A stretch of DNA of 52,202 nt from a virus: positions 1-52,202 of IMG/VR virus record IMGVR_UViG_3300037246_000766. The stretch is one strand, 5' to 3'. Position 1 is the first letter of the stretch. Each line of letters starts with the position of its first letter. Shown in pieces: positions 1 through 52,202 of the stretch. The position numbers and the translations under genes were made by a program. The notes below the pieces were generated by a model that was not told the DNA's origin, searched no databases, and was given only the letters and a program-made list of their open reading frames with translations.

Positions 1-2
1 CA

Positions 3-167
3 CATACTCCAGGCATCAGGGACGGTGCTTTCCAGGTAGGCACATTAAGCCAGCTAAAGCTAGACTATACGTCTGGTCCGTCTAGTTGGCTGAACACCAA
101 CGGTGTGGTATACGGGAATGGCAAACGCGCCCTGCTCAATATCATCGACGGGGCCTGGAGGAAATGA
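3..167 (+). CDS. C-terminal end of a virion (tail) protein, cut by the window edge
   Basis: The frame is open from base 3 and ends at TGA 165-167, giving about 54 residues. The visible tail reads as ordered beta-type sequence and ends in NIIDGAWRK. It lies two bases before the next start codon and its last codons carry that gene's Shine-Dalgarno. Position upstream of the lysis genes and downstream (off-window) of tail genes suggests a tail or virion protein, but no family is recognised from this fragment. Confidence 0.6.
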   Translation, partial: HTPGIRDGAFQVGTLSQLKLDYTSGPSSWLNTNGVVYGNGKRALLNIIDGAWRK

Positions 168-168
168 A

Positions 169-390
169 ATGGAGAAGCACATGGCGCAACGCTCGATGCT
201 CGACCAGCCAAAAACTAACTGGGTTTGCCCGTGCGGAGCAAAAGTGTTTGAGATCTTGGTGTGTCCGAATTGCATCCACACACCACAGTCTCATATCGTT
301 GGGTTCAAATGTATTGGATGCGACACGATTCACACAACGGATCTCGAAGGGTCTACCTTCGATGAAGAATTTGAGAACGTCGTCCATTGA
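169..390 (+). CDS. Small zinc-ribbon protein
   Basis: A 73-residue protein with CPCG, CPNC and CIGC pairs, the pattern of a zinc ribbon or rubredoxin-like knuckle. ATG 169 was chosen because GGAGG sits seven bases upstream; an earlier in-frame GTG lies inside the preceding gene. The acidic C-terminus (FDEEFE) follows the metal site. Function unknown; it sits directly before the endolysin. Confidence 0.6.
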   Translation: MEKHMAQRSMLDQPKTNWVCPCGAKVFEILVCPNCIHTPQSHIVGFKCIGCDTIHTTDLEGSTFDEEFENVVH

Positions 391-395
391 TTTGG

Positions 396-971
396 ATGGC
401 CTCATATGGAGACAAGCCACCCGTGGCTAAAGTATCAACAAATTTCACTGTCTACGAAGTCGGGCGCTCAGACATAGCGACTCGACTTGAGATCCCGAAC
501 AAGCCTCCCCAATGGGTGCTTGAGAATGCAGCGCTAGTAGCAACGCATATCCTTGAGCCTGTTCGGGAGCACTTCGGTAAAGGATACCTTCCGAACTCCT
601 GGTACCGCAGCGAGGAGTTTGAGCAGATACTGACTTGGGAGAAAGGCTTTCGCCGCTGGTGCGCTAGGCACAATAAAAACTGGATCACGAAGGCTGAACT
701 GTACAAGAGGCCGAAGGCACTCGACTCATGGACTGAGTATTTCGATCGCAAGCAGCACCCCACGGGGAAGGCAGTGGACATCGAGATCGCAGGCGTGGAC
801 AATGACACGCTTTTCTTCTGGATTCGAGACAACCTGGGGTTCGACCAGCTCATTCGTGAGTTCCCGAACCCAGGCGATCCGGCTTCGGGCTGGGTCCATG
901 TCTCGTGGTCCTGTGTACAAACGAATCGGCAGAGTTACTTCTCGTACCCGAGCTATGACAAATACGTCTGA
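396..971 (+). CDS. Endolysin, peptidase M15 (D,D/L,D-carboxypeptidase-like)
   Basis: Predicted zinc peptidase that cleaves peptidoglycan stem peptides at lysis. The signature is the HPTGKAVDIE stretch (His and Asp zinc ligands) and the later GWVHVSW with the third His, as in the M15_3/DUF882 group. Length (about 191 aa) suits a single catalytic domain without a separate wall-binding domain. No signal peptide is visible, so export through a holin is expected. The start is uncertain: ATG 396 has a poor ribosome site; GTG 423 with GGAG 11 bases upstream and TTG 387 are alternatives. It is followed by a two-TM holin candidate and, further on, spanins. Confidence 0.8.
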   Translation: MASYGDKPPVAKVSTNFTVYEVGRSDIATRLEIPNKPPQWVLENAALVATHILEPVREHFGKGYLPNSWYRSEEFEQILTWEKGFRRWCARHNKNWITKAELYKRPKALDSWTEYFDRKQHPTGKAVDIEIAGVDNDTLFFWIRDNLGFDQLIREFPNPGDPASGWVHVSWSCVQTNRQSYFSYPSYDKYV

Positions 972-996
972 ATGGTGCTCACGAGCATCGGAGTGC

Positions 997-1203
997 ATGA
1001 ACGAACTGAGGATCGTACCTCGGATTGCGCTCGTGACGTACTTCGGCTTTGTCGGGTACGTGTCACTGTGGTTCATGGAGCTACCCGATCCCTCGGGTGT
1101 GCAGATGACCTTCGCAACTTTGATCGCGGGCTTACTCCCTGCAGTCATCGGGCTCTACCAGGGCTCCATCAAGATGGGACACGCAAATGCCAGCAATAGT
1201 TAA
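997..1203 (+). CDS. Holin candidate (two transmembrane segments)
   Basis: A 68-residue protein with two hydrophobic spans (about residues 7-26 and 35-55) separated by a short charged loop, ending in a polar tail. Size, topology and position right after the endolysin fit a class II holin or a phage membrane accessory protein. ATG 997 has GGAG only three bases upstream; ATG 955, inside the endolysin, would add 14 residues. The 3' end overlaps the next gene by 17 bases. No specific holin family is recognised. Confidence 0.55.
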   Translation: MNELRIVPRIALVTYFGFVGYVSLWFMELPDPSGVQMTFATLIAGLLPAVIGLYQGSIKMGHANASNS

Positions 1204-2797
1204 CGAGACTCTCGCGATTGGAACGCATGTCTTCATGGTGAACCCAAGAGTTCAGACAAACATCGTTGTCGACTCGCTAGGGAGTGGAGGTACAGCAAGC
1301 GTTGACTTCACCTACGATGACAGGGGCGAGGACACCATCCTCTCGGGTGGCAACTTCGCTGCTGACGTAGCGAGTGCGGAGTGGGCTCCGGGTGGCACTG
1401 CGCGATCTGCTCAGACTCTGCGTGGACCAGTGACTGCTATCCGGTTCGTAGTGGCTGGGGGTACTGTCAGAGTTGTTGCTGATCGTGCTGGCAAAGTGCG
1501 AAAGATACTCTTCCCAGGAGGCGAGACTCACGTTGGTAATAAGATAGCTTGTGCGATGACCATGACGATTGCCGCGTCGGGACGACAGCTGGCTCCTGGT
1601 GTTGGCGCAGTGTCGATGAACATGGTGATTGCATCAGTAGGATTGAATTCGGTTCACCATGGTGCTGGGTCCATGCCGATGACGATGGCGCAGGCTGCGG
1701 GTGGAACAATCGATAAGACACACCATGGTGATAGCTCAGTGTCGATGAACATGACGCTCGCATCAGTGGGATCGAACCCGGTTCATCATGGTGATGGCGT
1801 ACCAGCGATGACGATGGCATTAGCTGGAACATCTGCAGATCTTAAAGTCCATCACGGTACCGCAGCTATGCCCATGACGATGGCACTGGATGCAGACGGA
1901 TCGAATCCAGTTCACCATGGTGACGGTGTACCGGCAATGAACATGGCGCTGGCCGGTGTAGGGCTGAACCCCACACAACATGGCATCGGTGCTCTAGCAA
2001 TGGGTATGGCACTGGCTGCGACGGGAACAAACGAACCGGCTGGCGTAGTTTCTTTGGCTTCTGACTTCAATGAGGCTGTGCTCTTGGAAGATACGACTGG
2101 ACCGCTTGTATCAGGACAGGCTGATGGACGTGTCTGTACGATCTCGTTCTGGTACAAAAACAACGCTAACCATTCTCATGACCAGGAAATAATTCGAATT
2201 CAGAATGGCTCCAGTCAGGCGGCGCTCAACGTACGGAATTCTTGGGCACGCTCCCAATCCCTTGTGGTTAATACGACTTCAAGCGGAAGTAACTCTTTGA
2301 TCTCATGCGCATCGGCAAACAGCTCGGTTCAAGTCGCGGACGGATGGAACCACTTCATGTGTTCATTTGAAAATACCTTTCCTCTGGATTCAGTCGCACA
2401 CGTAACTGGGTATTTTAATGGCGTGCTGCTCGTGCATGGTACTAACGGTGAGATTGTTAACCAGTCAATCCAAAATCTTGATATCGCATACAATGCTCGC
2501 GGCAAGGAAATTGTATCGGCTTCAAACGGATTCCCAAGCGCGAGTGGTTTCCTTGATGGACAGATATCAAATCTGTATGTGAATATTCAGGAGCGCCTCG
2601 ACCTGACTATCCAAGCGAACCGAGAGAAGTTCTACTCAGCAACGGGCGGGAACACAGATCTCGGTTCGGATGGCTCGGCTCCAACTGGAAGTCAGCCCAT
2701 CATCTTTGCTCCAGACGGTGACTTGAGAGTGAATGCCGGGTATGGTCCGAACCTCACCAAAATCTCAGGTACCATCACAGCTGTTGCAGGTCCTTAA
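1187..2797 (+). CDS. Virion protein with His/Met tandem repeats and LamG-like domain
   Basis: A 536-residue protein in three parts. Residues 1-110 match the next gene along their length (VASAEW, GPVTAI, GTVRVV are shared). Residues 118-285 are eight 21-22 residue repeats built on G-D-G-V-P-A-M-T-M-A-L-A followed by a NPVHH-type turn. Residues 287-470 resemble a laminin-G/concanavalin-like fold (SFWYK, DGWNH, YFNGVLL). This is the architecture of a tail-fibre or capsid-surface adhesin binding glycans, but that role is inferred. It lies among lysis and fibre genes on the late strand. Confidence 0.65.
   Translation: MPAIVNETLAIGTHVFMVNPRVQTNIVVDSLGSGGTASVDFTYDDRGEDTILSGGNFAADVASAEWAPGGTARSAQTLRGPVTAIRFVVAGGTVRVVADRAGKVRKILFPGGETHVGNKIACAMTMTIAASGRQLAPGVGAVSMNMVIASVGLNSVHHGAGSMPMTMAQAAGGTIDKTHHGDSSVSMNMTLASVGSNPVHHGDGVPAMTMALAGTSADLKVHHGTAAMPMTMALDADGSNPVHHGDGVPAMNMALAGVGLNPTQHGIGALAMGMALAATGTNEPAGVVSLASDFNEAVLLEDTTGPLVSGQADGRVCTISFWYKNNANHSHDQEIIRIQNGSSQAALNVRNSWARSQSLVVNTTSSGSNSLISCASANSSVQVADGWNHFMCSFENTFPLDSVAHVTGYFNGVLLVHGTNGEIVNQSIQNLDIAYNARGKEIVSASNGFPSASGFLDGQISNLYVNIQERLDLTIQANREKFYSATGGNTDLGSDGSAPTGSQPIIFAPDGDLRVNAGYGPNLTKISGTITAVAGP
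1538..2041 (+). repeat. Eight tandem 63-66 bp repeats encoding HHG...MTMALA units
   Basis: The protein repeats begin near residues 118, 138, 159, 181, 202, 224, 245 and 266. Each carries an MTM or MNM methionine pair; most end in HHG (one is QHG). DNA copies are diverged, so this is an old amplification, not a recent slippage tract. Confidence 0.85.
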
Positions 2798-2809
2798 CGG
2801 AGAAATTCA

Positions 2810-3154
2810 ATGACTGATCTAAGTAGAAACCGTGCCGTCGTTAACGACACTCTCGCAGTCGGCACTCATGTTTTCATGACCCCCGCTTACCGTGGCGCTC
2901 TCTACGGTGTGGTGGACACGTTGGGTCAAGGCGGCACCGCGCTTATCGAGTACACGTTCGATGATCGAGACAAGGATGTTATCCTTTCGGGTACGAACCC
3001 GGCAGGCGTCTTCGCTGCTGACGTGGCGAGCGCCGAGTGGAACCTCGGAGTCGTAGCGCGAGGCGCAGAGACCCTGGAGGGTCCGATCACAGCTATCAAG
3101 ATCACGATAGCGGTCGGCACGGTCAGGGTAGTAGTGGCTCCGCACCCACTTTAG
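2810..3154 (+). CDS. Small virion protein, paralog of the preceding gene's N-terminal domain
   Basis: A 114-residue protein that aligns with residues 1-100 of the upstream repeat/LamG protein: VNDTLAVGTHVFM, a YTFDDRDKDVILSG segment, FAADVASAEW and GTVRVV are shared. GGAG seven bases before ATG 2810 supports the start. It therefore looks like a stand-alone version of a small beta-rich domain. A head-decoration or fibre-base role is possible but not shown. Confidence 0.7.
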   Translation: MTDLSRNRAVVNDTLAVGTHVFMTPAYRGALYGVVDTLGQGGTALIEYTFDDRDKDVILSGTNPAGVFAADVASAEWNLGVVARGAETLEGPITAIKITIAVGTVRVVVAPHPL

Positions 3155-3211
3155 GGGCGGAAGTTAAAGTGAAGTGTGACGGAGGCCCCTGAGAGGCCCC
3201 AGGAGAGAGAC

Positions 3212-3601
3212 GTGATACCAACGAAGCTCATCATAGCGGGGGTCGTGACCGTGCTGCTCCTGGCTGCAGGAGCGGCCATTTGGATGCACTACACGGGGCT
3301 GCTCAGCACCATTACGCAGCTTGAGACCGACAAGGCCCAGCTCCAGACCGCAGTCCAGCTCAAACAGGCCCAGATCGTGTCCCTGGAGGCCCAGGCCGCG
3401 TCTTCGAAGGAGCGGATGGAGGTAGTCCAGGCTGACTTCGCGGAGGCCAGGGCACAGGCTGAGCGCGTCAAGACGCTGTTCGCCAACCATGACTTCGACA
3501 GGCTCGCCAAGGCTAAGCCGGGGCTGATCTCGCGGAGAATGCAGAAGGCAACCGCCGCAGTATTTGCGGAGATTGAGGAGATTGGCAATGAAGAATTATA
3601 G
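3212..3601 (+). CDS. Inner-membrane spanin (Rz-like)
   Basis: A 129-residue protein with one N-terminal membrane anchor (about residues 5-22) and then a long helical, Gln/Ala/Glu-rich periplasmic region predicted to form a coiled coil. This is the i-spanin layout that links to an outer-membrane lipoprotein to fuse the envelope at lysis. GTG 3212 is the preferred start because a perfect AGGAG lies six bases upstream; an in-frame GTG at 3176 would add 12 residues. It overlaps the next small gene by 14 bases, and a lipoprotein follows. Confidence 0.75.
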   Translation: MIPTKLIIAGVVTVLLLAAGAAIWMHYTGLLSTITQLETDKAQLQTAVQLKQAQIVSLEAQAASSKERMEVVQADFAEARAQAERVKTLFANHDFDRLAKAKPGLISRRMQKATAAVFAEIEEIGNEEL

Positions 3602-3770
3602 CGTCGAGTTTCTCCTACAGGGCGGGGCCGGAAAGGCGTGGGCTCCCAACGTGGAGAATCCAGTGACAGCTACAAATCTAAAGAGCGTGCTGCAACAACT
3701 CGCTGATGGGATACCTGGAGACGGCATGGTCGAGTTCATCGGTGTTCGGGTAGAGCTGGTCGATGAATAG
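3588..3770 (+). CDS. Small unknown protein between the spanin genes
   Basis: A 60-residue soluble protein starting at ATG 3588, seven bases after GAGGAG. It starts within the i-spanin gene, and its end overlaps the o-spanin start by eight bases, so it is translationally embedded in the lysis cassette. No membrane segment or motif is recognised. Confidence 0.6.
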   Translation: MKNYSVEFLLQGGAGKAWAPNVENPVTATNLKSVLQQLADGIPGDGMVEFIGVRVELVDE

Positions 3771-4092
3771 GTACCACACACTTCTCATGTTTTGTGTGGT
3801 AGCTCTCACCGGGTGTGGCTCTGCACCCGTCAAGCTAGACGTCAGTCAAGTCGTCAGGTTGGAGTGTGGTGCCGAGCCCAAAGTGGACCGGTTGCACATG
3901 CGAATCGTCAAGCCTTGGGTCATCGAGGACAACGCCGGCATCACTTGGATCGGGATCTCACCAGACCATTACGAGAATCTCAGCACCAACATCGCAAGTG
4001 TCAAGTCGCAACTCAAGCAGCGAGTGTCTGTCAACAAGTTCTATCGCAAGTGCATCGAGAGCTTCAATGCCCCGCAAGCTGACAGCACTTGA
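3763..4092 (+). CDS. Outer-membrane spanin candidate (lipoprotein, Rz1-like)
   Basis: A 109-residue lipoprotein: hydrophobic leader then lipobox L15-T16-G17-C18, followed by G-S, which favours outer-membrane sorting. It is the likely partner of the i-spanin gene ending 160 bases upstream. It is longer and less proline-rich than classical Rz1, and the two genes are separate rather than nested. The 3' end overlaps the next gene by 26 bases. Confidence 0.65.
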   Translation: MNRYHTLLMFCVVALTGCGSAPVKLDVSQVVRLECGAEPKVDRLHMRIVKPWVIEDNAGITWIGISPDHYENLSTNIASVKSQLKQRVSVNKFYRKCIESFNAPQADST

Positions 4093-6745
4093 GTTCGCTG
4101 AACAGCTCAAGGTCCCGAACGTCACAACCCGAGTCCTTGGTGGCGCAACCCACGCGAGCGTCGGTTGGGCAATAGGCTGGGCCAAAACCCGCATACGACA
4201 GCTGTCGCAGCAGATTCGACGTTCGACAATTCAACGAGAACAAGATAAACAACGCACGCGTTTTGCAGACATCCTGACTTTCAAGGATGGTAGTCCTGTT
4301 AACTCTTCCCCGAACGAGAGTATACCTAAGAGTGTTGTCTTCGACCGTCGCTATTACTACGCTGTCAATGGGAAGAACGTCAACAGCATCGAGCTGTTCC
4401 TGAATGCCTACGTCGGTCTCTGGTCGATCACGATTCGTGCCATAGATGCAGTGGGGACTCCCGTCTTGTTCTTGATAACTGATGCAAGCGAACACGAAGC
4501 TATTGTCGGATCGGGAGAAAGTACGACAGAGTTTCCTGTCACTCGTGTGAATCTCTCGACTATTGAAGACGATGAAAGTCCGTTGATCAATGTTGTTCCT
4601 GTACGAGCGACAGCCTTGGGGAATCGTTTCACGTTTAGTACAACAGAGGAGACTGAGCTATCTGGCAAACAGGCTTGGAGAAATTTTGACGCTCGTAGAC
4701 TCTACAAAGTTCTAAGCCCGTGGGTCAATATAAATGTAGCGGCGATTAAGAGCACTTTTATTTGGGTGTCTCCACCGGAGCTGGTGGCGATTACAGGAAT
4801 GAAGTACCAAGCCACTTCAATGGTGCCTGTTTATTATGATCGTGCTAATGACAAAATAACTTTGTGGGTTGGAGAAAATGGTATCGGTGAGCCCGATCAA
4901 CAATTCCGAAGTAGACTGCTTGATCCTAGTGGCAATCCAGGTGGTTCGTCATACGACGTACCAGTCATAAACATTGAAATAGCTGCTAGCTTTTTCTGGA
5001 CAATCGATGTGGATGATTATTTGGTCAGTGGTGTCCCCGCTGGAGGACGTACGACACTCACTGATGTCAGCGCGGGGAGCCCACTCTCAGTAGACTGGGC
5101 ACTAGAGGTTGGACTACTGACTGACCCTATCCCCACTGAAGATGGCGCGTTTGATTTTGTTAGTACTGATCAGCGTTTTGTCGACGGTGGGTTAACGACT
5201 ATCAACTTCTCCATACGAGCGACCGGAGTAATCTCGGGGGGTATCGCCTCGTCAGTTCTCGTAGAAGTCAGTCCTTCATTTCTTATTGAGGGAGATTCTA
5301 TACTCGCGGGGTTCACAAACGATCTGACAGGGAACCCTCCTATACTGTCGGACATGGGTCAACACTTCAATGTTACACGTAACAATGTCGCTCTCGGGTC
5401 CAACGCACTCTCAGAACAAGCCGGTAAATATGTAGATGCATCAAGCGCAGCTACAGAAAAACTCAAAGTCACTGTAACTGATAGCAACAAGGGTGGCTGG
5501 TCAGGCGCAAGTGGATACCCTTTCGGTACTCACTTCGCTGGACTAATTGCTTCGCGCTTGGCCCCGCCGGGTTTTGTTGATTTCCCAGCGTCGTTTGATT
5601 TTATTGAAAGTGACACGCATGCAGGTAGTCCACTAATTCGGCACGTATACAACACAAATCTTTACCTATATGAAGGCGTTCATGTTATCCACCGACGATT
5701 CGTACAACACGAGGGGTTCCTCAGAAACGGTAAAGCTTTTGTCGCACTAGAGGGAACTTCATATACAGAGAACGAAACAACAGCGGAGTGGAAAGTCTTC
5801 ACATGGATTAACGGAATCATACAACCGTCGACACGTAGCTTTGATGCATCTATTACCCAGGATATCAAAGACCCGTCGCCTGGGAGCGTGCCTTATCAAT
5901 TGAAAGTCGAGCAGTCGGGCGGGACTATATCTATGACTGATTTGTTTTCCAGAGATACCCCGGTGGACGTGGGTACGGGAGGAATTATTACAAAAAGTGT
6001 AACGCAACCTCCGCAATCTTTTTCATCAGCTCAACAGGGAATGCACACAATTCTTAGCACTGACAAAAAGTTTGATGACGGTTTTGGTAATGATATCTTT
6101 GGAGAGAATGTTGAGATCGATCCGATCTCTGGCTTTAAGCGGGTTACTCGACCTTCAGGCACCCTTCAACAAGCTCGGATCTTGGACGAGACCGGAGCAA
6201 TCATCGCGGAGTATGTAGACGATAAAAATGCACGCAACGAGCAGTTCAATATTAGGGGTATACAAACATCATTCATCCAAGTTTTTAGTGATGTAGGTTT
6301 CGGTGTTCTTTCATTTAGTGAACCAGGAATTGAGTCTACGGATGTAGTGCTTGTTGATGGGAAATTCGATTTCCGTTTCATCGGGCAGGGGCTCAACTCG
6401 ATGGCTAATGACAGCAGAATCTATATGAATGATATCGGGCTCACACCGGATAACGGTATCAGTATTCGTTGGATCGATGCAGTCGAGGATCAACACGGTC
6501 TCTTCATGGGACTTGTGAGTACTGACTTTGAAACGCTGCGAGATGAATGGGCTACTATCAATGCGGATGTCGAATCTACACCAGAACAAATCACTGCTGC
6601 GCGTGATGCAGCCGTGGCTGAGATCACTGTGTTATACAACAACTTCGCTAGTCTCGATTTTGTTCTTGCAGCAGCGAGCACTGGTTTGGGTATAGATGAG
6701 GGTGGGTTGCATCTCTATATCGTAGACAAACAAGTAGATATCTAG
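4067..6745 (+). CDS. Large virion protein, tail fibre/spike-like
   Basis: An 892-residue protein without recognised catalytic motifs. Residues 1-60 are helical and basic (possible virion-attachment segment with an RIRQLSQQIRR helix); the rest is beta-rich with many Asp/Gly/Thr turns. ATG 4067 follows GAGAG and overlaps the spanin gene; longer reading in frame upstream is only a shadow of that gene. The gene is visibly more AT-rich in parts than the head genes, as is common for host-range fibres that are exchanged between phages. It is the last gene of the plus-strand late block. Confidence 0.55.
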   Translation: MPRKLTALEFAEQLKVPNVTTRVLGGATHASVGWAIGWAKTRIRQLSQQIRRSTIQREQDKQRTRFADILTFKDGSPVNSSPNESIPKSVVFDRRYYYAVNGKNVNSIELFLNAYVGLWSITIRAIDAVGTPVLFLITDASEHEAIVGSGESTTEFPVTRVNLSTIEDDESPLINVVPVRATALGNRFTFSTTEETELSGKQAWRNFDARRLYKVLSPWVNINVAAIKSTFIWVSPPELVAITGMKYQATSMVPVYYDRANDKITLWVGENGIGEPDQQFRSRLLDPSGNPGGSSYDVPVINIEIAASFFWTIDVDDYLVSGVPAGGRTTLTDVSAGSPLSVDWALEVGLLTDPIPTEDGAFDFVSTDQRFVDGGLTTINFSIRATGVISGGIASSVLVEVSPSFLIEGDSILAGFTNDLTGNPPILSDMGQHFNVTRNNVALGSNALSEQAGKYVDASSAATEKLKVTVTDSNKGGWSGASGYPFGTHFAGLIASRLAPPGFVDFPASFDFIESDTHAGSPLIRHVYNTNLYLYEGVHVIHRRFVQHEGFLRNGKAFVALEGTSYTENETTAEWKVFTWINGIIQPSTRSFDASITQDIKDPSPGSVPYQLKVEQSGGTISMTDLFSRDTPVDVGTGGIITKSVTQPPQSFSSAQQGMHTILSTDKKFDDGFGNDIFGENVEIDPISGFKRVTRPSGTLQQARILDETGAIIAEYVDDKNARNEQFNIRGIQTSFIQVFSDVGFGVLSFSEPGIESTDVVLVDGKFDFRFIGQGLNSMANDSRIYMNDIGLTPDNGISIRWIDAVEDQHGLFMGLVSTDFETLRDEWATINADVESTPEQITAARDAAVAEITVLYNNFASLDFVLAAASTGLGIDEGGLHLYIVDKQVDI

Positions 6746-43060: not shown

Positions 43061-43245
43061 TGGCACAACCATCTGATGAACAATTGAAGGGCGCTATCAA
43101 GCGCGGTGAACGCGCAGGCAAAGGGCTTCGTGAGTTTCTCATAGGTCGTCCTGAGAAGAAGTTGAAAGCGCGAGACCTAAAGAAAGCCAAGCGCAAGGTC
43201 AAGGTGACCTTCAACAGTCCGAAGACTACGAAAATCACGTACTAG
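43054..43245 (+). CDS. Small basic late protein
   Basis: A 63-residue Lys/Arg-rich protein (KKLKARDLKKAKRKVKVTF). ATG 43054 has TAGGAG five bases upstream; ATG 43060 is an alternative. Possibly DNA or scaffold binding; unknown. Confidence 0.55.
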   Translation: MVMAQPSDEQLKGAIKRGERAGKGLREFLIGRPEKKLKARDLKKAKRKVKVTFNSPKTTKITY

Positions 43246-43283
43246 CACGATAAGCTAATAATCGTACAGCACGATAAACTAAT
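43244..43283. repeat. Two direct 16-bp repeats with 24-bp period
   Basis: AGCACGATAARCTAAT occurs at 43244-43259 and 43268-43283 (one difference). They fill the gap before the next gene; a TAAT...GTAC spacer separates them. Could bind a regulator. Confidence 0.6.
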
Positions 43284-46367: not shown

Positions 46368-47396
46368 ATGGCTATTTTGAGACATGTGTTGAGAGAAGAG
46401 AACAAGGGCGACGGATCTGACAATCCGCCGAAGGTAGTAGCTGGTCCCGGCGAGACCCAGGACAGCATGCCGAAAGATCCCCCCGCTAAAGATCCAGACA
46501 AGGGCGATGCTGTTGGTGATGAAGCGGCCAAGGAAGCGGCCAAGAAGGCAGAGGAAGATGCTGCAAAGGCAGCAGCTGCAAAGGATGCCGGCGGCGACAA
46601 AACGGACAAGGACGGGGACACCGACCTCAAGATCTCCGTTCCGAAGGCGAGGATGGATGCTGCGCTAGTTCGTGCGCGTGAGGCAGAGGCGCGAGCCGAT
46701 GCAGCAGAGCTGCGAGCAACTGAAGCTGAGCGGACCCCCGCGACTGCCAAAGCCGATGATGACGACGACACGCTAACGATTGCGCAGGCTGAGAAGCGCA
46801 TCGGGGAGCTTGACGCTGAGATCGCGAAAGCGATGAAAGACGAAGATGATGAGGGCGGTGCCAAAGCTGCTGTCTTACTTCGTGAACAGCGCGAGTTATC
46901 GGAAGGCGTCAGGGATGCTAAACTGGAAGATGCAACTGTCGCACAGACAGCGCAGACTACGGAGTCCATCCAGTTCGACCGCGTGGTCACTGACCTGGAG
47001 GGACGTATCCCGATCCTCGACGAGAAGCATGACGACTTCGACAAAGACCTGACCGACGAAGTAGTCGAACTCGCTCGCGCACTACACAGACAAGGTGGCC
47101 GCTCTCAAGGAGATGCGATGATCTTGGCAGTGGATTATATGTCCACTAAATTGGGCCTCGATGGAACTGACACGGTGAAAGAGGTCAAAAAGAAAGAGAC
47201 CGACATCGCGGGTAACGTCGACAAGGCAAAGAAGCTGCCGCCCGATTTGGCCGCTTCAAAGGCCGGATCGGACTCCGATAAGGCTGGGGTCACAGCGGAT
47301 AGCAAGCGGGCGATGGATATGTCGCCTGAAGAGTTTGAGGCCCTTTCTGGCAATCCGGAGGAAATGTCCCGGTTGCGGGGCGATTTCGTTACATGA
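46368..47396 (+). CDS. Scaffolding protein
   Basis: A 342-residue acidic, largely helical protein (AKEAAKKAEEDAAKAAAA, REAEARADAAELRATEAER) with a folded C-terminal part (ALHRQGGRSQGDAMILAVDY). Place between portal and capsid and composition are those of an internal scaffold. No protease domain is fused. Confidence 0.8.
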   Translation: MAILRHVLREENKGDGSDNPPKVVAGPGETQDSMPKDPPAKDPDKGDAVGDEAAKEAAKKAEEDAAKAAAAKDAGGDKTDKDGDTDLKISVPKARMDAALVRAREAEARADAAELRATEAERTPATAKADDDDDTLTIAQAEKRIGELDAEIAKAMKDEDDEGGAKAAVLLREQRELSEGVRDAKLEDATVAQTAQTTESIQFDRVVTDLEGRIPILDEKHDDFDKDLTDEVVELARALHRQGGRSQGDAMILAVDYMSTKLGLDGTDTVKEVKKKETDIAGNVDKAKKLPPDLAASKAGSDSDKAGVTADSKRAMDMSPEEFEALSGNPEEMSRLRGDFVT

Positions 47397-47534
47397 TAGT
47401 CTCTCGACATTCGGGTGGCGTACGATATGAAGCCCGTGCTCAGCACACGCTAAAGAGCTGCTTTCCGGCCTCCGACACGACAGTTCGGAACACTGTATCT
47501 ATCTTGTGTATCAGGACTTAGGAGGTCCATCAAA
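47397..47534 (+). promoter_or_regulatory. 138-bp gap before the capsid gene
   Basis: No gene is seen. It ends in a perfect AGGAGG nine bases before the capsid ATG, which explains high capsid expression. Only a 4-bp GTGC/GCAC hairpin is visible; no promoter can be assigned. Confidence 0.5.
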
Positions 47535-48653
47535 ATGGCTCTTACCAATTTCGCTGCTCTCACAGACGAGCAGAAAACGATTTGGGCCAAGGATACCTGG
47601 AAGAACGCCCGTAACGCTGCCTTTCTGAACAAGTTCTTAGGCGACGGTCCCAACTCGATGATCCAGCGGATCTCCGAGTTGAAGAAGACCGAGAAAGGCG
47701 CACGCGCTGTCATTACCCTGGTCAAGGACCTGGAAGGTGATGGTGTTGCGGGAGATCGAACCCTCGAAGGCAATGAGGAAGAGATCCAGTCGTTCGATCA
47801 GGTCATCCAAGTCGACCAACTGCGTCACGCCAACCGACACGAAGGCCGCATTGCGGATCAGCGTTCGGTTGTGGAGTTCAGAGAGAACTCTCGCGACGTA
47901 CTGGCCTACTGGCTCGCTGACCGACTCGACCAAATGGCGTTCTTGGCGCTCACTGGCGTTTCCTTCACTCTCAAGAACGACGGCTCCCCGCGAACGGGTA
48001 GTGATCTGCCGTTCCTGGAGTGGGCGGCTGACGTCACGGCTCCGACTACGCTTCGTCATCGCAACTGGGTTGACGCATCCGACTCACTCGTCCCCGGCGA
48101 TACCGCTACGGTAGTCGCTGCCGACGTGCCGTCTTGGCGCATGCTTGTCAAGATGAAGGCGTTTGCGAAAATTCAGTTCATTCGGCCCATCCGGGGCGAA
48201 GGTCCTTTCTCGGGGCAGGTCATGTACAACGTGTTCATGCACCCCGATGCAATCGCGATCCTCAAGTTGGATCCGGACTTTCTCGCCGCATGGCGCAACG
48301 CGATGCCTCGTTCGACAAGCAACATCTTGTTTCGCGATGCAGACGTGTACTTTGTGGATGGTCTCGCAATTCGCGAGTTCTTCCATGTGTTCAACACCCT
48401 TGGCGCTGCGGGTGGTAGCAAGTTCGGATCTGGCGGAAACGTCGAAGGTTCCAGCACGCTGCTCTGCGGTTCCCAAGCCCTCGGCTTCGCTGACATTGGC
48501 GATCCCTACTGGGTGGAGAAAGGGTTTGACTACGAGAACGAGCAAGGTATCTCGTTGGGCAAAATGTGCGGCATGAAGAAGCCTGTCTTCCGAAGCCACG
48601 CGTCGGGTACCAACGAAGACTTCGCAGTTCTTCGCGTCAATCACGCAATCTAA
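47535..48653 (+). CDS. Major capsid protein, N4-gp56/DUF4043 family
   Basis: A 372-residue HK97-fold capsid protein. Family blocks: LEGDGVAGDRTLEGNEEEI, FDQVIQVDQLRHANRHEG, VEFRENSRDVLAYWLADRLDQ and YNVFMHPDAIAIL. Strong ribosome site. This family occurs in N4-like and several other podovirus groups, so it does not by itself make this an N4-like phage; no virion RNA polymerase is present here. Confidence 0.9.
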   Translation: MALTNFAALTDEQKTIWAKDTWKNARNAAFLNKFLGDGPNSMIQRISELKKTEKGARAVITLVKDLEGDGVAGDRTLEGNEEEIQSFDQVIQVDQLRHANRHEGRIADQRSVVEFRENSRDVLAYWLADRLDQMAFLALTGVSFTLKNDGSPRTGSDLPFLEWAADVTAPTTLRHRNWVDASDSLVPGDTATVVAADVPSWRMLVKMKAFAKIQFIRPIRGEGPFSGQVMYNVFMHPDAIAILKLDPDFLAAWRNAMPRSTSNILFRDADVYFVDGLAIREFFHVFNTLGAAGGSKFGSGGNVEGSSTLLCGSQALGFADIGDPYWVEKGFDYENEQGISLGKMCGMKKPVFRSHASGTNEDFAVLRVNHAI

Positions 48654-48665
48654 CGGAGGCTGATC

Positions 48666-49127
48666 ATGGAAATTCTGAAAGACCAAGGTCGGCAATACTC
48701 CCTTTGGGCATCTGCGAACATCGGCTTTGCTGATGGACTCACTGTCGCGCAAGCAATCGGTACAGGGATTCAAGATCTTCTGGATCTTCCTGCGGGCGCG
48801 GAAGTGGTTGGTGGCTCAATTACCGTGACTGAGGTATGGGATCAGGGCACAACCGCTGTGCTTGATATCGGAGACGTAGACGATCCTGATCGTTACACGT
48901 CTTCGCCTGTCGATCTCAAAAGCCTCGGGCGAACGGCTCTTACTCTGGATGGTAAAGTGACCACAGGGGAAGAGACGGTCGACGTCGATCCCGTTCTTGT
49001 CGGGGCCGATTCCACGCAGGGAGCGGCGACCATTCGAGTCGAGTACGTCATCAACGATCGAGCCCATGAGAACCAGGGCCTGAACGTGGCGGATTACGGA
49101 TCGAAGAATGCGCCTGAGACCGGCTAA
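48666..49127 (+). CDS. Head decoration/cement protein candidate
   Basis: A 153-residue beta-rich protein directly after the capsid gene (GADSTQGAATIRVEYVI, EVVGGSITVTEVW). It keeps the capsid-plus-small-protein arrangement seen in many podoviruses. No specific family is certain. A strong terminator follows. Confidence 0.65.
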   Translation: MEILKDQGRQYSLWASANIGFADGLTVAQAIGTGIQDLLDLPAGAEVVGGSITVTEVWDQGTTAVLDIGDVDDPDRYTSSPVDLKSLGRTALTLDGKVTTGEETVDVDPVLVGADSTQGAATIRVEYVINDRAHENQGLNVADYGSKNAPETG

Positions 49128-49146
49128 CCCCTTTGGGGAACGAAGC

Positions 49147-49183
49147 GGGGACTGGGGTACTTACGTGCCCCGGTCCCTTTTTT
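49147..49183 (+). terminator. Strong intrinsic terminator after the capsid genes
   Basis: Ten-bp stem GGGACTGGGG/CCCCGGTCCC (49148-49157, 49168-49177, one G-U), ten-base loop and T6 tail. It would lower expression of the joining genes relative to capsid. Confidence 0.88.
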
Positions 49184-49207
49184 ATTTGTGTTTGAGAGGA
49201 AAGAGAG

Positions 49208-49897
49208 ATGCCTAAAGAGAGAGTGAACTTGCCCGCCCCCGTATTTCCCGCAGTCGTGCGTGGAATGACGTGGGTGGAATCAAACCGAAATATTACCCTG
49301 AACACTACGAAGGGACACTGCGTTTTCTTCTTGCGCGGTCGAAAGCAGCTGTGCCCCAACGTCATACTCGAAGATGCGATGGCAGTTGGAATCCTTCCCG
49401 TCGAAAGGGACCGTGTGTCGGATGACGACGACGATGGGATTCTGCCAGTCGAGATCACGGGTAGCGCACGTATCAGTCAGATTCGTGACTGTGTCGAGGC
49501 ACTGATCAGGCGCAACGGACGAACTGACTTTACTGCCAGCGGCCTACCGAATCTCAAAGTGGTCAACCGTACTCTCGGGTACGATGTCGATCTCAGCGAG
49601 GTAACGAAGGTGTGGGCCAAGATCCAACAGGAGAACGCTGATTCTCGCAATGATCCTTCAAAGGTCATCGAGAGCGCTGCTCCCGTTCGCCCCTCTGATC
49701 CGGAGGAGTTCGTGAAAGCACTCGATGATATCGTTCGCTCAGTCTTCGAGACTGGAAGCGAGGATGACTTCACTGGATCCGGCGCACCACAGGTGCGGTC
49801 TATCGTCAACCGATCTGGTTACGATGTGACAGCAGCCGAACGCGATGCGGCCCATAAGCGCTATCAAGCTGCGCAGAAAGGGCAACCAGCAGAGTAG
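49208..49897 (+). CDS. Virion protein with internal duplication
   Basis: A 229-residue protein. Two copies of a 55-residue unit are seen: ISQIRDCVEALIRRNGRTDFT...VVNRTLGYDVDLSEV and a later VKALDDIVRSVFETGSEDDFT...IVNRSGYDVTAAE. An N-terminal 60-residue beta part (LNTTKGHCVFFLRGRKQL) precedes them. Joining or head-completion role inferred from position. Confidence 0.65.
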   Translation: MPKERVNLPAPVFPAVVRGMTWVESNRNITLNTTKGHCVFFLRGRKQLCPNVILEDAMAVGILPVERDRVSDDDDDGILPVEITGSARISQIRDCVEALIRRNGRTDFTASGLPNLKVVNRTLGYDVDLSEVTKVWAKIQQENADSRNDPSKVIESAAPVRPSDPEEFVKALDDIVRSVFETGSEDDFTGSGAPQVRSIVNRSGYDVTAAERDAAHKRYQAAQKGQPAE

Positions 49898-49906
49898 GTA
49901 ACGTAA

Positions 49907-50650
49907 ATGTCACTCACACCCGAAGATCTTAAAGACAGGTTCCGCAGAGAAGTCGATGACATAAACGGTGGTAGTCAAGGTGAAGACTACCTCTGGTCTG
50001 ATGATGACGTCTTCGGATACATGGAAGTGGCGCAGAGAAAGTTCGTACGACGAACACATTTTCTGCGGAAGGGTTCCCCTGCGGTCGATATAACAGATCT
50101 GACCACACTGGCCTTCACTGCTTCGGGTGCGAGTGGCTTTTTACCGATCAGTACCAAGATCATTCGTATCTTGAACGCAAGGATGCGAGACACTTCAAAC
50201 TCGAATTCAGATCCACTAGAGATCATGCCTTTCGAGGAACTCAACGAGGGGTTCTTCACGCGTGACTATGGCGCTGTGTTCGTAGGAAACTGGCAGGATA
50301 AGATTGGAAACGCACGTATCCTTGCTCCGAACTTCACAGAGAACTTCGTACGCATTGTCCCGATCCCTGCACAAGACGACACCGTTGAGTTGATCGTTGA
50401 ACATCTTCCGCTTAACACTGTGACGTGTGATAGCGCTACGCTCGACGTCACAGAACTCGAAGATCAGCTAATCATCATGGACTACATGCGCTCTCTTGCT
50501 TTCTTGAAGCAGGACGCGGATACCTACGATCCAGAGCTGTCTGCCAAGTTCGGACGTCTGTTTGACAGTGCAGCTGATGAGCGACGTCGTGAGATCAAGC
50601 GTACGCGCTTCCGCGCTCGTAGTACGCGCTACGGAGGCATACCCTTCTAA
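49907..50650 (+). CDS. Head-tail adaptor protein
   Basis: A 247-residue protein with a helical N-terminus (DLKDRFRREVDDINGG, FGYMEVAQRKFVRRT), a middle beta insert and a C-terminal helix (DQLIIMDYMRSLAFLKQD). This follows capsid in P22-like order and looks like an adaptor binding the portal. The Arg-rich end overlaps the next start by one base. Confidence 0.65.
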   Translation: MSLTPEDLKDRFRREVDDINGGSQGEDYLWSDDDVFGYMEVAQRKFVRRTHFLRKGSPAVDITDLTTLAFTASGASGFLPISTKIIRILNARMRDTSNSNSDPLEIMPFEELNEGFFTRDYGAVFVGNWQDKIGNARILAPNFTENFVRIVPIPAQDDTVELIVEHLPLNTVTCDSATLDVTELEDQLIIMDYMRSLAFLKQDADTYDPELSAKFGRLFDSAADERRREIKRTRFRARSTRYGGIPF

Positions 50651-51864
50651 TGGCGCTCAAGAACACCACAGCGAACAGACCGAGAGATGCGAAGCTTGAG
50701 ATCAAGGGACTTCGTACGCAAGACGAAGACTTTGAGGTTGGCTTCGATGGAATGGTCCTCGCTAACAACGTCGACCTGACGCGCAAGAATAGCATCGAGC
50801 GCCGCCCTGGTCGCGTTGACACTTCGTACGTTCCTGCAGGAACGATACACAGTGCATGGGCTGACAAGCAGCTCTTTCTTTTTCAGGAGGGCACGTCGCT
50901 CAAACGCTTTCGCTCTGCGACTGACGTTGAGACGCTGCGCACCGGCTTAACGATAGGAGATAAGATCAGTGCCTACAGAATTGGAAACCAAGTCTACTGG
51001 AGCAACGGATTTGAAACTGGAGTCGTGGAGCCAAACGGTAACCTTCGTGATTTCGGAGTACCCGTCCCTTCCCGCTTGGAAGGTGCGCCAACTACAGGAA
51101 ACCTTGGAGAAGGCCGCTACTCGTATGTTTTCACAAATGTTGAGTCAGATGGCCGCGAGTCCGGAAGCCCTCTACCAAGAACCGTTGACGTTGGAGAAAA
51201 TGAAGGCTTTCTCTTCACATTCTCTGCGGGGCTCACGAAGCGCTTCTGGATCACTGAAGCTAACGGCGACACCCTATATCTCGCAGATGAAATTTTTGCA
51301 GGGGAGACGGGCTTCTCTTATCGTAATGGACGACCTCGTACAAGCATAGTGCTCGACCGTCAATTGATGTCCGCCCCGGAGGCATGGCACGAGATTGACT
51401 GGTTCCGCGCTAGTTTACTCTTCGCCCGAAATAACAACTTAGAGTGGACAAATGAGTTCGATTATGAACTCAGAGACCTCGCCAAAGGGTACATGCCCTT
51501 CGGGGAACGGATCCACATCATTGGTGGTCTCAGAGATGGGTTTTACATCGGGACGGAGACAAAGCATTATTGGCTGACCGGGAGCGACATGATGAACCTG
51601 TCCCTGACCGAAGCTGCAGATTACGGAGCGATCCCAGGCACGAAGGTCCATATCAACGGCTCAGTCGTTGGTACCGGCGAGGCCACTGAGAGGATCCCGG
51701 TATGGGCTACTCAGGCGGGCATCGTGATAGGGCTCCCAGGCGGAACCTTGAGAAACGTCCACGAGCGTGTGGTAGACTTCTCAGCCAATTCAGTGGATGG
51801 TACAGCGCTCTACAGACGAGCGAACAAGCAGAACCACTACATCGCAGTGGTAAACGGAGGCTAA
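50650..51864 (+). CDS. Tail hub/plug protein (P22 gp10-like)
   Basis: A 404-residue beta-propeller-like protein: repeated W/Y-G-x-F strands, RTSIVLDRQLMSAPEAWHEIDWF, GYMPFGERIHIIGGLRDGFYIGT and TKHYWLTGSDM. It matches the size and place of packaged-DNA stabilisation proteins below the portal. Direct family confirmation needs a search. Confidence 0.6.
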   Translation: MALKNTTANRPRDAKLEIKGLRTQDEDFEVGFDGMVLANNVDLTRKNSIERRPGRVDTSYVPAGTIHSAWADKQLFLFQEGTSLKRFRSATDVETLRTGLTIGDKISAYRIGNQVYWSNGFETGVVEPNGNLRDFGVPVPSRLEGAPTTGNLGEGRYSYVFTNVESDGRESGSPLPRTVDVGENEGFLFTFSAGLTKRFWITEANGDTLYLADEIFAGETGFSYRNGRPRTSIVLDRQLMSAPEAWHEIDWFRASLLFARNNNLEWTNEFDYELRDLAKGYMPFGERIHIIGGLRDGFYIGTETKHYWLTGSDMMNLSLTEAADYGAIPGTKVHINGSVVGTGEATERIPVWATQAGIVIGLPGGTLRNVHERVVDFSANSVDGTALYRRANKQNHYIAVVNGG

Positions 51865-51868
51865 GACA

Positions 51869-52202
51869 ATGGCACTAAGATTGACGGACGGACTGCGGAA
51901 TCACATCCTGCAGGTTAGCTCGGTGGAGGCTGCGCTTACTCTCGGGTTTCTCATGATCTACAGCGGGTCTCAACCCGCAAGCGCAAATGACGCCGCGACC
52001 GGAGTTCGTCTCGCGACGATTGCTGTCGACGGTGGTGCAATCGGACTTACGTTCGATGCGATTGTTGTAGCGGGTACGTTGCCCAAAGCTGCGGCAGAAG
52101 TGTGGAACGGGACAGCTGGTGCAACAGGCACGGCTGGCTGGTTCCGTTTTCATGAACTGGACACAAACAAAGCGACTACGGAAGCAAGTGCTGACGCAGG
52201 CG
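51869..52202 (+). CDS. Virion structural protein, cut by the window edge
   Basis: Starts at ATG 51869 with GGAGG upstream and is open to the end (111 residues seen). Pattern FLMIYSGSQPASANDAATG followed by ATGTAGWFRFHELD is common in podovirus structural proteins encoded near joining genes. Role unknown. Confidence 0.6.
   Translation, partial: MALRLTDGLRNHILQVSSVEAALTLGFLMIYSGSQPASANDAATGVRLATIAVDGGAIGLTFDAIVVAGTLPKAAAEVWNGTAGATGTAGWFRFHELDTNKATTEASADAG

Follow-up and report, generated by a model that had tools for sequence, protein, structure and literature searches.

The locus poses the question of what an array of methionine- and histidine-rich repeats does in a phage protein, and why methionine in particular is kept in it. 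The repeats lie in a 536-aa ORF (1187-2797, + strand) of the window, by which we mean the whole 52,202-nucleotide stretch of viral DNA analysed here (IMGVR_UViG_3300037246_000766). The region in which they were originally predicted, 1538-2041, corresponds to aa 118-285 of this ORF, and unit register and autocorrelation delimited an array of eight units of 20-22 aa each at 1523..2032 on the + strand. The first Met of an MxM motif served as the anchor of each unit and was found at aa 124, 144, 165, 187, 208, 230, 251 and 272 (n = 8). The successive spacings were 20, 21, 22, 21, 22, 21 and 21 aa, mostly within the 21-22 aa originally proposed, with 20 aa at the lower end. On the + strand, MTM was present in units 1 (1556..1564), 3 (1679..1687), 5 (1808..1816) and 6 (1874..1882), with MP preceding it in units 3 and 6, and MNM was present in units 2 (1616..1624), 4 (1745..1753) and 7 (1937..1945). 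The expectation of MTM or MNM in every unit was thus borne out for seven of the eight, unit 8 having MGM (2000..2008). HHG occurred in units 3 to 7 (1655..1663, 1721..1729, 1784..1792, 1850..1858 and 1913..1921), always at positions -8/-7/-6 relative to the first Met. The claim that most units carry HHG is thereby borne out; unit 8 has QHG (1976..1984) at these positions, unit 1 contained only THVG, and unit 2 had no His.

The repeat is real. The self-match of the array gave a z of 13.1 at lag 43 and of 8.2 at lag 21, and these values were reached by 0 of 2000 shuffles. Met accounted for 10.6% of the array compared to 1.8% of the window's other main proteins (p ~2e-9), and His for 6.5% compared to 1.9% (p ~4e-4). 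TRF detected no DNA tandem repeat at the array. The four-fold third codon positions vary between the units while the residues are kept, indicating a translated repeat rather than a DNA repeat; judged from the codons, the array is an old protein repeat under selection. The strongest self-match at lag 43 instead of 21 indicates two alternating sub-types of unit, and duplication of unit pairs may be how the array grew.

The 536-aa protein was divided, from the ORF and its repeats, into an anchor-like N-terminal domain, the Met/His array, a LamG-like domain and a C-terminal tail, in this order. The N-terminal domain (aa 1-100, 1187..1486, + strand) shares 63% identity with 2834-3136, which belongs to a 114-aa stand-alone copy of the domain (2810..3154, + strand). 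The stand-alone gene lies directly downstream of the array gene, within the lysis cassette. The LamG-like domain (2135..2449, + strand) was a weak match to PF13385 (E 0.003), with 18.2 bits falling below the Pfam cut-off of 27.6.

We searched IMG/VR using a profile of the array units and obtained one other locus, which carries a 1477-aa ORF. It is located on contig IMGVR_UViG_3300043173_000393 (L248), whose positions 1-5611 match 46592..52202 of the window on the + strand with 99.98% identity (one mismatch in 5611 bp). The contig continues with ~19 kb of tail genes past the right end of the window and does not reach its left end. Such a near-identical overlap indicates that the contig supplies what the window lacks of this phage's genome, or comes from a near-identical strain, and that the two array proteins, being encoded in one genome, are paralogues. 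Consequently, the idea that the contig with the second array (L006) represents a second phage, which would have meant conservation between species, was rejected. The window is a fragment of a genome of at least ~71.6 kb. The head genes at 40.9-52.2 kb placed the phage near Pseudomonas phage KPP25 and Acidovorax phage AP1, with 56% and 46% identity in the major head protein, respectively, and the terminase, portal and other head proteins were likewise matched. The closest other relatives in head genes were two contigs of IMGVR_UViG_3300009788, L003 and L004, with terminase identities of 75% and 63%; the sequence compared for both ends short of the tail region. A 24-bp tandem repeat (ACGTACAGCACGATAAACTAATAA, 1.9 copies) was also present upstream of the portal gene, at 43237-43283.

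The gene of the 1477-aa protein (L248:6715-11145) starts ~1.1 kb beyond the right end of the window and comes after the head-closure and phrog_3758 genes. The protein exhibited a LamG-like N-terminus, to which the LamG-like domain of the 536-aa protein showed 18% identity (E 0.008), and then an SPRY domain (PF00622, E 7e-10). Directly after ten Met units with a nearly constant spacing of 21 aa came a second array that lacks Met, of the GTLTLPxLTVxGTI type and also with a 21-aa period (z 8.6). The adjoining arrays of the same period suggest that a 21-residue β-repeat is a general building block here. No common origin of the Met and Leu arrays was demonstrated by the hhalign profile comparison; phrog_38263 is similar to the Leu array (E 8e-6). 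The C-terminus matched phrog_26502, annotated as a virion structural protein.

We compared all 18 units, eight from the window and ten from the 1477-aa protein. Both Met residues of the motif, Met0 and Met2, were invariant (36 of 36 positions), although four-fold sites coding for the same residue differed at 52% within the window array and at 56% between the arrays, and residues differed at 48-54% in the unit comparisons. Position 4 was occupied by Ile, Leu or Gln, and positions -9 and -3 varied widely. Other hydrophobic columns varied (Fisher p 7e-4 for the closest of them, a value that overstates the case as the units share ancestry). Met would have drifted had any hydrophobic residue been sufficient, because Leu, Ile and Val are what most single-base changes of ATG encode. 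The retention of Met at all positions despite nearly saturated synonymous divergence, next to a variable neighbouring column, suggests that Met itself is under selection. In addition, the turn residues were kept, Gly in 17/18 and Asn in 13/18 units. The His pair is not conserved. His was found in 12/18 units at -8 and in 12/18 at -7, with at least one of them in 16/18, the number expected if both columns are independent, and with HH in only 8/18. A third sulfur was present at -2 in seven units.

These features are most likely explained by a stalk: the array would be the β-repeat rod in a phage protein of adhesin or fibre type, placed between an anchor domain and a LamG-like head, and we consider this somewhat better than an even bet. 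Each unit of 20-22 residues would form one main β-strand, M-x-M-[A/T]-[I/L]-A-x-[T/V], after which the chain would turn at G-x-N, run through a short strand (N-x-V-(H/K)-H) and turn again at G-x-G. The units would stack in succession into a rigid rod that connects the duplicated N-terminal anchor domain to a putative carbohydrate-binding LamG-like head. On the main strand, Met0, Met2 and Ile/Leu4 would lie on one face and Thr/Ala on the other; the Met pairs of neighbouring units could thereby form a continuous strip, probably the core around which the rod packs. The tail-cluster protein reuses this module. The stalk reading is backed by the unit register in both arrays, the strand predicted in each unit, the conserved Gly and Asn of the turns, the domain order and the paralogous array in the tail cluster. 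The original suggestion of a fibre shaft or adhesive rod ending in a LamG-like head therefore stands as the best reading by domain order and strand pattern, with the head itself a weak match.

Two AlphaFold2 jobs, run on alignments of almost no depth, supplied the strands. For the tail-cluster protein, the array was modelled with a pLDDT of 55-65, and each unit comprised a long strand, MTMAIAAV, and a short one, NxVHH. The model of the full-length 536-aa protein was unusable as a structure (pLDDT 31), with strands at matching places in every unit. MxM opened a β-strand in both jobs, and hydrophobic and small residues alternate along the main strand. In a Foldseek search with the array model, PDB matches reached E 2 at best, and nothing was significant in the PDB or BFVD. 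Structural alignment of the low-confidence model with VIA pointed to β-helices, with a Z of 17.7 for RbmB and of 12.2 for the LKA1 tailspike. AlphaFold2 is documented to produce spurious β-solenoids from repeats (PMC11795689), and we thus used only the strand assignment from the models. The solenoid form is unproven, a trimeric shaft of hairpins being just as good a fit.

A stalk with a plain core does not account for the choice of residue, as a generic aliphatic core would not demand Met at all 36 positions. For the retention of Met in place of Leu, the leading candidate is soft-metal binding. The MxM motif of each unit and the His that ends the short strand before it might form a predicted CusF/SilF-like Cu(I)/Ag(I) site, joined in 7/18 units by the third sulfur at -2, so that the stalk would be a tandem metal array; the metal would stiffen the rod, or the phage would carry or sense it. 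In SilF, the ions (Cu(I)/Ag(I)) are bound by His63, Met74 and Met76 on SHEAIPAVGWPAMT (PMC10656224). Most of the 26 CusF-family proteins that we fetched contained the motif strand-[KR]HG-loop-[MW]P-x-MTM-strand, and the array units show a similar succession, strand-[HK]HG-loop-(M)P/PA-MTM-strand, for example 'KHGDGLMPMTM' and 'HHGDGVPAMTM'. H[GA] occupied the matching upstream place in 10/17 M[TSN]M motifs of the arrays versus 1/364 in control ORFs, a comparison made after the motif was seen and among units that are not independent. The Met invariance in two strongly diverged paralogous arrays and the His at -8/-7 in nearly all units also favour metal, which we regard as a tentative possibility rather than the probable answer. 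The unit that lacks His altogether and the retention of HH in only 8/18 units weigh against it, as does the expected burial of the Met-bearing face. An arrangement with Met in a hydrophobic core and His scattered had been named in advance as evidence against a metal role. It was partly seen, with Met on the presumed buried face and variable His; however, the invariance of Met under nearly saturated synonymous divergence and the CusF-like placement of His and MTM argue against regarding the metal reading as refuted.

The likeness to CusF does not extend to homology. The PF11604 profile had no match in either contig at E <= 10, an unfiltered HMM built from the 26 CusF sequences did not pick out the arrays, and hhalign aligned only 10 columns of the arrays with CusF at a probability of 11%. 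On these three tests, homology was rejected. Furthermore, His lies at -11 in 27 of 30 motif matches among CusF members, as opposed to -8/-7 in the array units, making the His-to-Met loop of the arrays 3-4 residues shorter, and column -3 contains V, A, L and S where CusF has its Trp/Met cap. The arrays are not CusF members; by analogy, they may nevertheless work in a CusF-like manner.

The genomic position of the array gene suggests a further explanation, namely that the 536-aa protein acts as an accessory at the lysis stage and is no part of the virion. The gene is outside the tail cluster and placed in the lysis cassette. It is preceded by an endolysin gene (387-971, phrog_894) and a small holin-like ORF (802-1203), the holin assignment being our own reading of a match to phrog_10198, a family of unknown function. 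It is followed by genes for an Rz-like i-spanin (3176-3601, phrog_739) and an Rz1-like o-spanin (3763-4092, phrog_812). However, adhesin genes often adjoin lysis genes in phages, the protein sequence has no signal-like N-terminus, and the LamG-like head and the second array carrier in the tail cluster speak against a lysis role, which we consider improbable. The lysis-cassette position weakens the proposal of a virion protein. Support for it comes from the phage's own tail cluster, in which the paralogous array protein has a C-terminus matching a PHROG for virion structural proteins; the 536-aa protein is a putative virion component. After the spanins, a long ORF (3866-6745) spans 959 aa from its first possible start, with a likely gene start near 4064; it showed no family match and no relative in IMG/VR.

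Slightly less probable still is a methionine bristle: the Met strip would then form a flexible hydrophobic surface, exposed and sticking to lipids, the lipid A of LPS or hydrophobic ligands, so that the array itself would be the adhesive part. Thioether side chains suit promiscuous hydrophobic contacts, and a bristle would explain Met-specific selection without metal, but a rod needs one packed face, for which the Met/Ile side is the sole candidate, Thr/Ala forming the other. Iron held by His clusters, as had been suggested from some tail-spike tips, was rejected because the HxH iron motif of T4 gp37 and the Alteromonas phage R22Y tail fibre (PMC11705849) is absent from both arrays, in which even HH is a minority feature, the single HSH being in the LamG-like domain.

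The array had no relative outside this phage in the databases searched, among the matches listed. No homologue of the 536-aa protein was found in cultured phages or in IMG/VR, and none of the array in plasmids; array matches to mycobacteriophages (E 0.3-2) were at chance level. A DNA pattern of two consecutive M[TN]MA units hit more than 200 loci, and a similar array was present only in the second contig, among the matches listed. With the array profile, 398 genomes from the phylum to which one Comamonadaceae MAG belongs gave no match, and 201 from its family gave a single one (E 6e-4, with a stop inside), which was taken as chance; as these searches had no positive control, the absences are weak. 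A literature search in an open library returned no paper on methionine-rich copper-binding phage tails. To our knowledge, metal in phage fibres has so far been documented mainly as His-held ions, as in the T4 fibre tip.

The arrays can be compared with several known systems. Parallel β-helix tailspikes, such as gp49 of Pseudomonas phage LKA1, resemble the weak model in a coil of ~21 residues with Asn at the turn, but there is no sequence similarity, and the model confidence is too low to claim the fold. Tandem β-repeat shafts in phage tail proteins, namely the Leu/Pro 21-residue repeats of the 1477-aa protein and phrog_38263, have the same period, one main strand per unit and Gly after the strand, whereas their strand residues are aliphatic and they lack His, as opposed to the Met pair and His-Gly of the Met arrays. 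In the T4 gp37 tip and the R22Y tail fibre, His is likewise regularly spaced along a putative fibre, and several R22Y motifs are 22 residues apart (PMC11705849); however, the arrays have adjacent HH drifting between two positions, and their invariant residue is Met, which is no part of HxH sites. The periplasmic CusF/SilF chaperones (PF11604) share with the arrays an MxM, mostly MTM, that opens a β-strand, with Pro just before it and His-Gly ending the preceding strand, but they are single OB-fold barrels rather than tandem arrays, and the arrays have no export signal. In this phage, a tail-cluster protein and a lysis-cassette gene share one repeat module, and Met as the strictly kept residue of both proteins would mean either a soft-metal fibre or an unusual core packing of β-repeats. 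That the two proteins together carry 18 tandem CusF-like Cu(I)/Ag(I) sites, reached by convergence, in a metal-loaded adhesin stalk seems unlikely; if true, such a stalk would be to soft metals what the T4 fibre tip is to iron.
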